In this document: one piece after another, positions 1 to 37,230 of the stretch
How positions within the stretch are numbered: the first letter of the stretch is position 1
How the letters are laid out: each line of letters starts with the position of its first letter
NCBI GenBank assembly: GCA_028282645.1
Contig: JANQHM010000036.1
Span: 1 to 37,230 of the forward strand
Reading direction: 5' to 3'
Source of the DNA: Candidatus Gastranaerophilales bacterium
GTDB lineage: Bacteria; Cyanobacteriota; Vampirovibrionia; Gastranaerophilales; JANQFW01
DNA length: 37,230 bases
Made by a program: the position numbers and the translations under genes
The notes under the pieces: generated by a model
Told to the model about the DNA's origin: nothing
What the model saw: only the letters and a program-made list of their open reading frames with translations
Databases searched by the model: none

Positions 1-368
1 TTTGAAATTAAGTTTTGCGTGGCTCGCGCATCCTTTAATTTCAAATAAGATAATAGTTTTGAAAGTTTTAATGCTTTATTTAGCATTTGATTATTAGTAT
101 TAAGTATGTTTAATATTTGTTTTTTGTTTTTATTAGTAGTTTGTGCTGATGCAGCATCAGCTTTATTATTTTTATTTATTATTATTTTCTTTTTTAATTC
201 TTTTAAAGATAAAAATATATTATAAAAATAAGTATCAATACGTGCAAAAACGAAAAAAGAAAGCTTTTTTCCGTTGATTGGACTTTGTGGGGCAATCATT
301 GGGTCTAAAAGTGCTATGATGTTCCACAAAATACAAAATATTATTTTAACGTATTGAATAATGTTCAT
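1..368 (-). CDS. Hypothetical protein, N-terminal part only; runs off the left edge of the window (MNIIQYVKIIFCILWNIIALLDPMIAPQSPINGKKLSFFVFARIDTYF...)
   Basis: Manual reverse-strand translation: ATG at 368-366, open to position 1; hydrophobic N-terminus then Lys/Asn-rich. Not in the supplied ORF track because it is truncated. Confidence 0.55.
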   Translation of the reverse strand, partial: MNIIQYVKIIFCILWNIIALLDPMIAPQSPINGKKLSFFVFARIDTYFYNIFLSLKELKKKIIINKNNKADAASAQTTNKNKKQILNILNTNNQMLNKALKLSKLLSYLKLKDARATQNLIS

Positions 369-424
369 TTTTTAGCCTTTGGATTATCTTCTTTATAAAA
401 TTAAAAACCAAATATATTTATATT

Positions 425-578
425 TTATATCTTTAATATATATCATAGCATGTTTTTGAATTTTTCGCAGGCTCTTTGAATGTAAAAATGCTAATTTTGT
501 AACATTACTTAATGAAAAAAATCTACTGGCTCTTTATACTCTTGTAATTTTATGCTTCTCATAATAAAATACCCATTT
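425..578 (-). repeat. 154-bp repeat, copy B; inverted relative to 37077-37230
   Basis: Reverse complement of 37077-37230 aligns without gaps with 12 mismatches by eye (~92% identity). Confidence 0.93.
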
Positions 579-677
579 ATTAAAGTTACGTAGCAGTCTT
601 ATTTTGTTTAACAACTCTTTATAAAATAGCGTTTTTAATGTATATTAATGATTAAGAGTAATTGGGAGGGATAATAA

Positions 678-4035: not shown

Positions 4036-5287
4036 CTTTTTCTTTTTGAGATTTATCGCTACATAACATTCTAGCACATCTGTTAACTCTTTTTTGTATT
4101 TTATCAGAGACTTCTCCTTCGGGACAAATTTCAAATGCTCTTTTATAGGCATAAAATGCTTTTTCCAGGTCATTGGCATCATAGCATTTATTTGCGATTT
4201 CTAGTATAGTATTTACTGCGCTAAATATTGGGTTTAAATAACCTTTTATTTCCTCGATTCTCTTTTTAAAGTCCGGTTCCCGCTCGGGCCTGAGTATTAA
4301 GTAATTTTCGTATTCCCATAGGGCTTTATCATATTTTTTATTGCTATATAGTTTATCGGCGTTTTTCAGTATATTATCTGACAGGGAGGGATTAGAGGAT
4401 ACTTTTTCATTTAAGAATTCGGCTCTTAAGTTTACGTCATCGTATTCATCATTCTCCGGGGTGATTAGTTTAAGGTAGCGCTTATACATGCAGTAGGCTT
4501 TTTCTATTTTTCCCAGTTTTTCGTAGGCTACTGCTAAATTACAATAGGTATTAGAGTGATCTGAGTCTAGCCTGGCTGCTTTTAGCCAATAAGAAATTGC
4601 CTTATCATATTTTTTGGCTTTATAGCAAATGCTACCCATATTTAAAAATACTTTAGGCAAGTTGGGATAATATTCCAATGCTTTTAAATAAGCTTTGGCG
4701 GCGTGGTTAAACAGGCCTTGCTTTTGATATTTCACTCCTAGCTTGGCATTTAGTTCGGCAATTTTTTTTGAATAGGCTATTTTTTTATGAAGACGTACGT
4801 ACTCAAGTTGAGAGGCACCTTTTTTACAATATTTTAAGTATGTTTCATAGTAATTGAAAGCCTGAGCAAGCTCTCCCATATTTTCGTAGGCTACACCAAG
4901 ATTTAATATAGAATTCAGGTGGTCGGGAGAGAGTGAGATAACCTTTTGCCAACAATCAATAGCTCTTTTTAGATCACCTTCATGATAGTATGCGTTTCCT
5001 AAGTTTATATAACACCTTATATGTGTTGGATCTTGTTCTATTGCTTTTTGCCAGCAGTCAATAGCCTTATCTATTTCCAGTAGTTTAAAATGAGCATTGC
5101 CCTTATTTATAAGGGCTTCCAGTAAATCCGGGTGTTCGGCCAATATGCTGTCAAATATAAATAATGACTCGTGTATGTCACCATGTCTGTATGCAGAAAC
5201 CCCGGAGTTGAAAATCTTTTGTACTTCTTCAAAGTCTAGTTCTCCAGCGTCATCCAGATTGGTATTAAGAAACTCTTCCAGCGTCAT
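4025..5287 (-). CDS. Tetratricopeptide repeat protein
   Basis: Multiple TPR units, e.g. LEALINKGNAHFKLLEIDKAIDCWQKAIEQDP, IRCYINLGNAYYHEGDLKRAIDCWQKVISLSP. Confidence 0.92.
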   Translation of the reverse strand: MTLEEFLNTNLDDAGELDFEEVQKIFNSGVSAYRHGDIHESLFIFDSILAEHPDLLEALINKGNAHFKLLEIDKAIDCWQKAIEQDPTHIRCYINLGNAYYHEGDLKRAIDCWQKVISLSPDHLNSILNLGVAYENMGELAQAFNYYETYLKYCKKGASQLEYVRLHKKIAYSKKIAELNAKLGVKYQKQGLFNHAAKAYLKALEYYPNLPKVFLNMGSICYKAKKYDKAISYWLKAARLDSDHSNTYCNLAVAYEKLGKIEKAYCMYKRYLKLITPENDEYDDVNLRAEFLNEKVSSNPSLSDNILKNADKLYSNKKYDKALWEYENYLILRPEREPDFKKRIEEIKGYLNPIFSAVNTILEIANKCYDANDLEKAFYAYKRAFEICPEGEVSDKIQKRVNRCARMLCSDKSQKEKDAQ

Positions 5288-7293: not shown

Positions 7294-7411
7294 TATATTG
7301 GTACTAAATTAAATTTCAGAATTCTCTTTGGAATGAGCTTATAAAAAATAAAATTGACCATTTCACTTTTTAACGCTCCCGCTTCGCAATTCAGAGAATA
7401 GTTTATTTTAT
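7294..7411 (+). repeat. Dispersed repeat family A, partial (left-end) copy
   Basis: TATATTGGTACTAAATTAAATTTCAGAATTCTCTTTGGAATGAGCTTATAAAAAATAAAATTGACCATTTCACTTTTTAACGCTCCCGCTTCGCAATTCAGAGAATAG... closely matches 14238 onward. Confidence 0.85.
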
Positions 7412-12099: not shown

Positions 12100-12116
12100 T
12101 TGTACCTCTTCCGATT

Positions 12117-12231
12117 TATACTATCTTTAAAATACTTTTCAGATTATTCATCAGAATAATTATTATTTTATTAAGAAATTAAATAATATACAAATTTTTT
12201 TACTTTTCAAAAGTATTTTTAAGTTAGTATA
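12117..12231. repeat. Dispersed repeat family A, short form (115 bp) bounded by 23-bp terminal inverted repeats
   Basis: Left end TATACTATCTTTAAAATACTTTT (12117-12139); right end AAAAGTATTTTTAAGTTAGTATA (12209-12231), reverse complement TATACTAACTTAAAAATACTTTT: 21/23 identical. Confidence 0.87.
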
Positions 12232-14237: not shown

Positions 14238-14405
14238 TATACTGGTACTCAACTAAGTTTCAGATTTCTCTTTTAAAATGAGCTTATAAAAAGTAAAATT
14301 GACAATTTCACTTTTTAACGCTCCCGCTGCGTAATTCAGATAATAGCTTATTTTATCAGCTTTAACACGCTTAAATAATCTGAAAAGTATTTTTGAGTTA
14401 GTATA
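14238..14405 (+). repeat. Dispersed repeat family A, full-length copy (168 bp) with imperfect terminal inverted repeats
   Basis: Left end TATACTGGTACTCAACTAAGTTTCAGATT; right end AATAATCTGAAAAGTATTTTTGAGTTAGTATA (reverse complement TATACTAACTCAAAAATACTTTTCAGATTATT). Confidence 0.86.
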
Positions 14406-14509
14406 AATCTAGTCTAGCAAAAATATTCTCTGTTTACTAATTCAGAGCTAAGCCACCTTAATATGATATGATAAAAGTAAAGAAGTATAATTTCGGAGGA
14501 GGAAATGTA

Positions 14510-15379: not shown

Positions 15380-15497
15380 ACTTGTGGTAAAAAATACTTC
15401 TTTAAACTTTTTTTTATTTTTGGTAGTGATCAGTTGAGTACTGATGCTTACAAGTAAACTCAAGCTATATCAAAACTTACAGCGATGACATAAGAAA

Positions 15498-15521
15498 GGT
15501 GATGACCATCACCTTATTTTT
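15498..15521 (+). terminator. Probable bidirectional terminator hairpin between the M23 gene and trpC
   Basis: GGTGATG-AC-CATCACC palindrome followed by TTATTTTTT, in the convergent intergenic region. Confidence 0.7.
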
Positions 15522-15524
15522 TAA

Positions 15525-17632: not shown

Positions 17633-17748
17633 AGAAGCTGTCTTGTTAAAGCTTGTATCGCCTTGCCAGGCAAGCCGCTTCAGCTTTACCGTAAATGAGC
17701 CTTTATTATTGATATAACCAGCTTTTATTTTTTAACCAGACAGGCTCT
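17633..17748 (+). repeat. Dispersed repeat family B, copy 1 (~116 bp, imperfect TIRs)
   Basis: AGAAGCTGTCTTGTTAAAGCTTGTATCGCCTTGCCAGGCAAGCCGCTTCAGCTTTAC...GATATAACCAGCTTTTATTTTTTAACCAGACAGGCTCT. Confidence 0.9.
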
Positions 17749-20469: not shown

Positions 20470-20487
20470 ATATGTAATAAAAATTTT

Positions 20488-20511
20488 GGTGATGGTCATC
20501 ACCTTTCTTAT
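20488..20511 (+). terminator. Terminator-like hairpin after the YbjN-like gene
   Basis: GGTGATGGTCATCACC palindrome followed by TTTCTTATC; shares 24 nt (inverted) with 15490-15513. Confidence 0.6.
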
Positions 20512-26684: not shown

Positions 26685-26804
26685 AGAAGCTATCTTGTTA
26701 AAGCTTGCATCGCCTTGCCAGGCAAGTCGCTTCAGCTTTAACATCGCAGTCCGTAAATGAGCCTGATATAACCAGCTTTTATTTTTTTTAACCAGACAGG
26801 CTCT
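26685..26804 (+). repeat. Dispersed repeat family B, copy 2 (~120 bp)
   Basis: AGAAGCTATCTTGTTAAAGCTTGCATCGCCTTGCCAGGCAAGTCGCTTCAGCTTTAACATCGCAGTCCGTAAATGAGCCTGATATAACCAGCTTTTATTTTTTTTAACCAGACAGGCTCT. Confidence 0.92.
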
Positions 26805-31292: not shown

Positions 31293-31363
31293 AGAAGCTG
31301 TCTTGTTAAAGCTTGCATCACCTTGCCAAGCAAGCCGCTTCAGCTTTAACAGCGCAGTCCGTA
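31293..31363 (+). repeat. Dispersed repeat family B, copy 3 (left half only)
   Basis: AGAAGCTGTCTTGTTAAAGCTTGCATCACCTTGCCAAGCAAGCCGCTTCAGCTTTAACAGCGCAGTCCGTA; right end absent. Confidence 0.9.
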
Positions 31364-31376
31364 TAAGAAAAAATCG

Positions 31377-33596: not shown

Positions 33597-33800
33597 AATA
33601 CTTTTTAGATTATTAAATCGTGTAAAAACTAATAGAATAAGCTCTATTTTGAAAAGAGAAATCTGAAATTTAATTAAGTGTCAGTATAACTATTTTCTGA
33701 ATTGTGAAGTGGTAGCGTTAAAAAATGAAATGGTTAATTTTACTTTTTGTAAGCTCATTCTAAAGAATAATTTAAATTTAATTGAGAACCAGAATAAATA
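33596..33800 (-). repeat. Dispersed repeat family A, composite/tandem copy in inverted orientation
   Basis: Reverse complement contains TATTTATTCTGGTTCTCAATTAA...GAATGAGCTTACAAAAAGTAAAATTAACCATTTCATTTTTTAACGCTACCACTTCACAATTCAGAAAATAG then TATACTGACACTTAATTAAATTTCAGATTTCTC...AATAATCTAAAAAGTATTTT. Confidence 0.8.
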
Positions 33801-36234: not shown

Positions 36235-37023
36235 ATGATAATTTCAAGTTTAAAAAATGATAATATAAGCAAAAAAGTATCTGATAAAAACTATAATAAT
36301 TACTTTACAGCATTTACGGGTAATAATGATAATACTTTTCAAGCTTTTAGCACTATCTATAGTAAGGGAATTAAAAATTATGCCGTTCAACAAATAATTA
36401 AAACCCCGACATTAACCGGCAATACATTAAATGATGCAATGAATGAACTGGAAAAAATTCACTTCTCGCAGAATGACATAAAATACATGCAAAGTCTTGG
36501 AGTAGATGTAAAATTCAATAATGGAAAAGAAATAGCAGACTTTATAAAAAAGAATAAAATCAAAGTAGAATTTGACAAAATGGGCAGCAAAGCCGCACAT
36601 GCCCAGTGGGTCAAGGCCAATAACAAAATAACAATTAACCATAAATATAAAAATACAACAAATCCGCTGCTAATTGTAGCCATAAGTGAGGCAATATGCC
36701 ACGAAGGAGGCCATGCCAAAGATGGTGATGATATATCATCAATAAAAGAGGAATTTGACTGCCTTGCACTTAATACACTGGCAAACAGATATCACCAGCG
36801 TGCTTATCCAAATTTATTCAAAGAAAACAGCGAAGCAGATATCTTAAAGAACGGTGTAAATTTATACACAGAATTATTTTTTGCCCCGGATCAAAACAAA
36901 GAAAGATTGGTTAATAGAATTATAAACAAATACGGTGATCTCCCGTTAACAAGCCCAAATCATGATCAAATAACAGACTCTGCTGTTCTTTATAGGTTAA
37001 TAAGAAAGAAGCGGTCTAATTAA
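36235..37023 (+). CDS. Putative metalloprotease-like protein (HEGGH motif) with N-terminal FTGN motif
   Basis: AFTGNNDN near N-terminus; LLIVAISEAICHEGGHAKDGDDISSIKEEFDCLALNTLANRYHQ contains HExxH. Confidence 0.65.
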   Translation: MIISSLKNDNISKKVSDKNYNNYFTAFTGNNDNTFQAFSTIYSKGIKNYAVQQIIKTPTLTGNTLNDAMNELEKIHFSQNDIKYMQSLGVDVKFNNGKEIADFIKKNKIKVEFDKMGSKAAHAQWVKANNKITINHKYKNTTNPLLIVAISEAICHEGGHAKDGDDISSIKEEFDCLALNTLANRYHQRAYPNLFKENSEADILKNGVNLYTELFFAPDQNKERLVNRIINKYGDLPLTSPNHDQITDSAVLYRLIRKKRSN

Positions 37024-37076
37024 AAAAATAAGTAACAAAGATAAAATATTTACTCCTAAAATATTCAGTTAATAAA

Positions 37077-37230
37077 AAATGGGTATTTTATTATGAGGGA
37101 CATAAAATTACAGGAATATAAAGATCCGGTGGACTTTTTTCATTAAGCAATGTTACAAAATTAGCATTTTTACATTCAAAGAGCCTGCGAAAAATTTAAA
37201 AACATGTTATGATATATATTAAAGATATAA
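37077..37230 (+). repeat. 154-bp repeat, copy A; inverted relative to 425-578, may continue past the window end
   Basis: Ungapped alignment to the reverse complement of 425-578, 12 mismatches. Confidence 0.93.

Follow-up and report, generated by a model that had tools for sequence, protein, structure and literature searches.

The two ends of contig G000:C254, analyzed here over its whole length of 37,230 bp (the window; GC content, 31.7%), carry closely similar sequences in opposite orientation, which raises the question of what this repeat is and whether the pair delimits the DNA between its arms.

The repeat pair and its genomic family

The first-pass annotation had described an inverted repeat of ~154 bp, present in two copies that bound the window. 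Repeat finding confirmed the pair itself, with arms of 158 nt at positions 425 to 582 and 37073 to 37230 that are 92% complementary, oppositely oriented, and separated by 36,490 nt. The two arms are identical at 145 of 158 positions in an ungapped comparison, and a search of the source genome returned the partner arm with an E value of 1.8e-59, which excludes a chance match. That same draft genome (G000; 3.11 Mb in 307 contigs) holds far more than two copies: the repeat has 40 matches there, the best partners being 90 to 94% identical, and the copy number is to be read as at least 40. Nearly all of the 40 matches lie ~0.5 kb or less from a contig end, the behavior expected of short-read assembly at dispersed repeats. 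The repeat thus bounds nothing; each contig end simply falls within one member of a dispersed family of at least 40 copies. Since the arms are family members at which the assembly broke, their spacing and orientation carry no meaning, and they are paired at these two positions because the contig breaks there. Like any repeat, the pair could act as a substrate for inversion.

Beyond the arms, the right copy extends outward as far as a TA at 37029, and the left copy runs the opposite way through a partial ORF (368..1) up to the contig end. The features of the two copies are as follows.

3..368, minus strand: 5' part of the passenger ORF, 122 amino acids, cut by the contig end; starts MNIIQYVKIIFCILWNIIALLDPMIAPQSP
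369..441, minus strand: 5' untranslated stretch from the promoter-like motif to the start codon, conserved in the copy alignment
442..450, minus strand: extended -10-like motif TGCTATGAT of the left copy, from column conservation over 40 copies in two genomes
425..521, minus strand: core-cassette leader of the left copy (TTTTTTCATTAAGYAATGTTAC...TATGATATATATTAAAGATATAA)
487..506, minus strand: weak conserved leader hairpin, AATGTTA/TAGCATT, with 98.9% of cells paired
522..582, minus strand: 5'-truncated IS630 left end of the left copy with the transposase start (MRSIKLQEYKEPVDFFH, then a stop)
37029..37030, no strand: TA target dinucleotide bordering the right copy on its outer side, from 5'-junction comparison; 6 bp past the stop codon of the ORF at 36235..37023
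37031..37124, plus strand: IS630 left end of the right copy, 90% identical to the IS630 element of genome G001 over 96 nt including the TA
37093..37146, plus strand: remnant of the IS630 transposase start (MRDIKLQEYKDPVDFFH, then a stop)
37125..37133, plus strand: IS-internal scrap and junction to the core, GATCYGGCA of IS nt 288 to 299
37134..37230, plus strand: core-cassette leader of the right copy, running off the contig end (ORF unassembled)
37205..37213, plus strand: extended -10-like motif TGTTATGAT of the right copy, from the same 40-copy column conservation

Both extended -10-like motifs are predicted to act as promoters on the basis of their consensus.

The outer third of the repeat is an IS630 left end

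The repeat is composite. Its outer third derives from an IS630-family element, whose left end it carries as far as the first codons of the transposase (MR-IKLQEY); its inner two-thirds hold the leader of an orphan gene together with its extended -10-like promoter. The first-pass annotation had named, as grounds for rejecting its own reading, a finding that the repeat is a trivial tail of a known insertion sequence; this holds for about one-third of its length and fails for the remainder. The IS630-family element used for comparison lies on contig C34 of a congener (G001:C34), where it reads CATT-TA-[AGTAAC...GACT]-TA-ATATTG, i.e., with a TA duplication, and interrupts a transposase gene that is IS256-like by our reading of the translation. 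Both halves of the element match NCBIfam transpos_IS630 (E values of 3.5e-10 and 9.3e-34), and it also matches HTH_29 and Pfam DDE_3 (1e-28 for DDE_3). The transposase start MRGIKLQEYEE falls within the first 101 nt of the element, a stretch that aligns to both window copies, with 86 of 96 positions identical at 37029 to 37124 (90%) and 46 of 52 at 531 to 582 (88%).

In ~12 G000 copies, the IS homology stops exactly at nt 101 in the numbering of this query, equivalent to nt 96 if counting starts at the terminal TA. Behind this point, several copies contain a 12-bp exact match to IS nt 288 to 299 (AAAGATCTGGCA). Other IS segments stand directly ahead of the same core at L019 (nt 261 to 299) and L030 (nt 70 to 136). 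An IS630 left end stands in front of the cassette, in keeping with a mobile insertion cassette, whose left end is homologous to that of an IS. No DDE transposase of its own is present in the cassette, which keeps just the first codons of the gene; the partner IS in G001 has DDE_3. Transposase sequences of the IS630 type are present in G000 in fragmentary or frameshifted form, and the G000 IS630 copy, which is 67% identical across most of its length, may be inactive.

In both genomes, the core is closed by a hairpin resembling an intrinsic terminator. Many 3' sides in G000 run on from there to an IS630-like end, GGAATAAAAGGTGAAAACTTTTTACCACCTACT/TA (the slash marks the junction). G000 has 32 occurrences of the last 26 nt of this right end and G001 has none, and the right end found on the 3' sides, GGTGAAAACTTTTTACCACCTACT/TA, bears only a moderate resemblance to that of the G001 IS630 element (~22/32 by manual count on the alignment). 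The two sides of one copy are joined solely at L022 and L124, where the left end is internally deleted. Among the fetched copies, none combines an intact IS left end with the matching right end, because the contigs break inside the unit.

Two sequences related to the right end deserve mention. L306 (G000:C257:13314-13348), one of these 32 occurrences, is a 35-bp near-perfect palindrome forming a miniature element, TA-AGTAGGTGGCAAAAACTTTTTACCACCTACT-TA, that consists of little beyond the cassette right end and its mirror image. At G000:C305:12759-12819, ~60 bp of the cassette terminator region lies near the position orthologous to that of the G001 copy on C57 (35 kb); this stretch could be either the remnant of a lost copy or an older terminator common to both genomes.

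The inner part leads into an orphan gene

In copies with enough sequence, the layout in gene orientation is leader, ORF, and terminator, and all such copies lead into one protein family. The earlier proposal that the repeat is a duplicated 5' leader or promoter region of paralogous genes was thus borne out. Full-length relatives (on C73, C13, C11, C21, C201, and other contigs) encode proteins of 136 to 189 amino acids with a hydrophobic N terminus and an otherwise basic sequence. The window ORF is 77% identical to the full-length C73 member, and its hydropathy peaks at 2.16 over residues 3 to 21. A profile search gave 62 matches in G000 and 19 in the congener G001, some of which are pieces of one gene, and zero members in 144 other genomes of the class. 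With a DNA query against an order-level sample, only short, weak matches were found outside the genus. Pfam, NCBIfam, and PHROGs returned scattered weak matches to the protein, none of them convincing, and no transposase-, integrase-, or reverse transcriptase (RT)-like domain was found in it.

Across 31 recent copies, 2,233 codons contained 0 stops, compared to 37.1 expected when the same substitutions were placed at random; the formal P value of ~1e-16 is overstated because the copies share ancestry, but the deficit of stops itself is evident. Three of the four indels in these copies are multiples of three, and dN/dS is ~0.7. These patterns indicate that the ORF is a real protein gene, fast evolving yet maintained. 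By the searches above, the gene is confined to this bacterial genus, in which it has dozens of scattered copies.

Within the orphan ORF of many copies, we observed a ~90-bp palindrome-ended repeat (TTAGTGACTTATC...AAGAAAGGTGATGACTATCACC) that keeps the reading frame (L032 at 4175 to 4265, L102, L084, L086, L088, L093, and other copies). It is flanked by a short duplication (..GCATAAG / ..GGATAAG), has relatives between genes at window positions 15490 to 15523 and 20478 to 20511, and is much like the Rickettsia palindromic elements. The window contains other dispersed repeats as well. One (AGAAGCTGTCTTGTTAAAGCTTG...GCTTCAGC) has three copies, at 17633 to 17708, 26685 to 26760, and 31293 to 31368, and also adjoins cassette copies, e.g., at L019 and L103. 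A further family occurs in both orientations at 7327 to 7411, 14272 to 14356, and 33690 to 33764. Neighboring repeats at 12113 to 12148 and 14374 to 14409 (AATAATCTGAAAAGTATTTTT...TAGTATAA) look like the ends of a second miniature element.

Insertion sites in the congener

We mapped the flanks of G000 copies onto ~1.56 Mb of the congener G001, where they align at 68 to 95% identity. At all 24 sites that could be mapped, no unit was present within 2.5 kb in G001, and this uniform vacancy shows that the units are mobile. The 5' junctions are nearly uniform, with 12 of the 13 listed reading T/AAGTAAC or a variant (AAATAAC or AAGTAAA); right-hand ends read CTACT/TA, and TA is found at most of them. 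The boundary is abrupt at several sites. Relative to G001, L003 breaks exactly at AATA/AGTAAC (...TTGACAAAATA/AGTAACAAAG against ...TTGACATAATA/TCTTATT). L022 and L124 are the two sides of one insertion, for which the G001 counterpart is uninterrupted (GAGTGTTAGTTTTTTATTT; unoccupied, GAGTGTTA-GTTTTTT). Copies without IS sequence, in both genomes, are also found at nonorthologous, lineage-specific sites, and therefore IS630 cannot account for all of the spread. In a separate case, L021 and L024, whose 5' ends face outward, fall on opposite flanks of a single G001 intergenic region (compared with L168, on G001:C11), as would arise from a pair of copies converging at one site.

A probable mobile insertion cassette with IS630 ends

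We consider it likely, with a probability of about 0.8, that the repeat forms the 5' portion of a nonautonomous mobile insertion cassette that has IS630 ends, is moved in trans, and carries an orphan gene. This reading is built on the composite structure, the common junction, the TA junctions, the unoccupied congener sites, and the open reading frames, all of which were shown here. A lineage-specific cassette consisting of a leader with its own promoter, an ORF of ~150 to 190 amino acids, and an intrinsic terminator would have joined an IS630 element within the transposase gene, near IS nt 299. Later internal deletions would have removed the transposase, the main lineage keeping IS nt 1 to 101 and the 12-bp scrap before the leader. 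This unit would have AGTAAC at its left end and, in copies that show the other side, ...CCACCTACT at its right end; it would lie at TA sites, and an IS630 transposase provided in trans would have spread copies of it around the chromosome. We infer the mobilization in trans, the promoter activity, and the order of events from these patterns; a single joining near nt 299 followed by differing internal deletions would be the simplest history. Of the earlier suggestion of a dispersed functional element, mobility is the part that stood.

Several observations weigh against this reading: the two intact ends are not joined in any one fetched copy, the right ends of cassette and IS630 element are only moderately alike, the G000 IS630 copy may be inactive, and IS-less copies also occupy nonorthologous sites. 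In addition, a weakly resolved tree of the copies shows IS-fused and nonfused members intermingled, and a grouping of the IS-fused copies as one clade was not supported. Copying by target-primed reverse transcription, for which the variable 5' ends had made the units a candidate, was rejected, as these 5' ends are IS630 sequence at TA sites. The nonfused copies could be either truncated cassettes or a core with mobility of its own.

Two variant copies were also noted. L113 (G000:C307:2016-2299) is an internal deletion derivative in which the IS630 left end and leader are fused straight to the 3' part and the ORF is missing. At L108 (G001:C39:7.98-8.95 kb), a toxin-antitoxin pair, RelB/ParE type by our reading of the translation, takes the place of the orphan ORF between two copies of ATTAAGYAATGTTACAAA, possibly representing a swap of passenger.

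Alternative explanations

It is possible, though we think it unlikely, that the core itself is mobile, with its own ends (a T-run and ATTAAGYAATGTTAC on the left and the terminator on the right), and that fusion to IS630 came late and added a secondary vehicle; the ORF product may then take part in propagation. The IS-less copies begin at nearly the same point in both genomes (unit positions 143 to 149), the mapped sites of nonfused copies are among those also empty in the congener, and the ORFs are open in nearly every copy, as would be expected if intact copies alone propagate. However, the protein is devoid of the enzymatic domains sought in it, the nonfused copies show no target duplication or recognizable ends, and the fuzzy 5' edge could come from secondary truncation or ectopic recombination. 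A still less likely version is that the core is an undescribed genus-specific mobile element, made up of a small membrane-anchored-type protein and short noncoding ends, that spread by its own route and later hitchhiked on IS630. If that were true, the element's own need for the protein would explain why dozens of copies keep it intact.

An ordinary gene family that grew through tandem or segmental duplication and gene conversion, without any mobile element, is improbable. Such a family would be consistent with the conservation of leader, ORF, and terminator across copies and with the dN/dS of a gene whose frames stay open, but for the IS-fused copies it is contradicted by the IS630 left end at TA junctions. 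Moreover, the 24 mapped sites are empty in the congener, yet their neighboring genes are common to both genomes, and the copies are bounded at the unit rather than within common flanks.

The notion of a regulatory RNA, or a riboswitch-like leader duplicated ahead of paralogous genes, draws on the strong conservation of the leader and the almost invariably paired small hairpin. We regard it as highly improbable: the repeat had no match in Rfam at gathering and E-value thresholds, single-strand folding was no better than that of shuffled sequences (z of +1.3 and +1.1), covariation in the one leader hairpin tested was not beyond shuffles (65 to 76 of 500), and IS630 coding sequence makes up part of the repeat. 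The regulatory RNA raised as an example of a dispersed element was accordingly the part of that suggestion that fell away.

That the assembler put one repeat sequence on both contig ends is scarcely credible: contigs do end in the repeat, and some contig pairs carry identical ends, like de Bruijn overlaps, but the two copies have 13 mismatches in 158 sites and are unlike in 5' structure (full versus truncated IS end) and in their unique flanks, and a few copies sit inside contigs.

Comparison with known systems and implications

MIC231 of Bacillus cereus is an example of a mobile insertion cassette (MIC). Like MICs and MICEs, the units described here have IS-type ends, a passenger coding sequence that replaces the transposase, and a related IS in the genome. 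They differ in their IS630-type ends and TA target, in carrying an orphan gene that has a promoter and terminator of its own, and in the dozens of copies per genome, which include truncated and variously deleted derivatives and cores without IS ends. MICEs are distinguished from MITEs by their coding sequence, the qnrS2 MICE being one example (PMC5444012), and the conserved ORF likewise sets our units apart from MITEs, which have terminal inverted repeats without coding capacity. With the IS630 family (NF033545; Pfam DDE_3), the units share the left end, the transposase start, and the TA site, as seen in the G001:C34 element; unlike that family, they lack a transposase and hold a foreign gene cassette inside. 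Among IS630-related MITEs, one comparison is with RUP of Streptococcus pneumoniae, which is ~107 bp long, has terminal repeats like those of IS630-Spn1, and is proposed to be mobilized in trans by IS630 (PMC3049150). RUP is similarly nonautonomous and of high copy number; in contrast, our unit carries a conserved ORF, a promoter, and a terminator.

The finding also bears on how such assemblies are read. Dispersed units of this kind help account for the fragmentation of such assemblies into hundreds of contigs, and they counsel caution: an inverted repeat found at the ends of a contig will usually be a dispersed mobile element. For the biology of the family, the IS630 end here carries an orphan gene rather than a resistance or metabolic gene, and every tested copy of that gene is in frame, which raises the question of whether it is the host or the element that is under selection.
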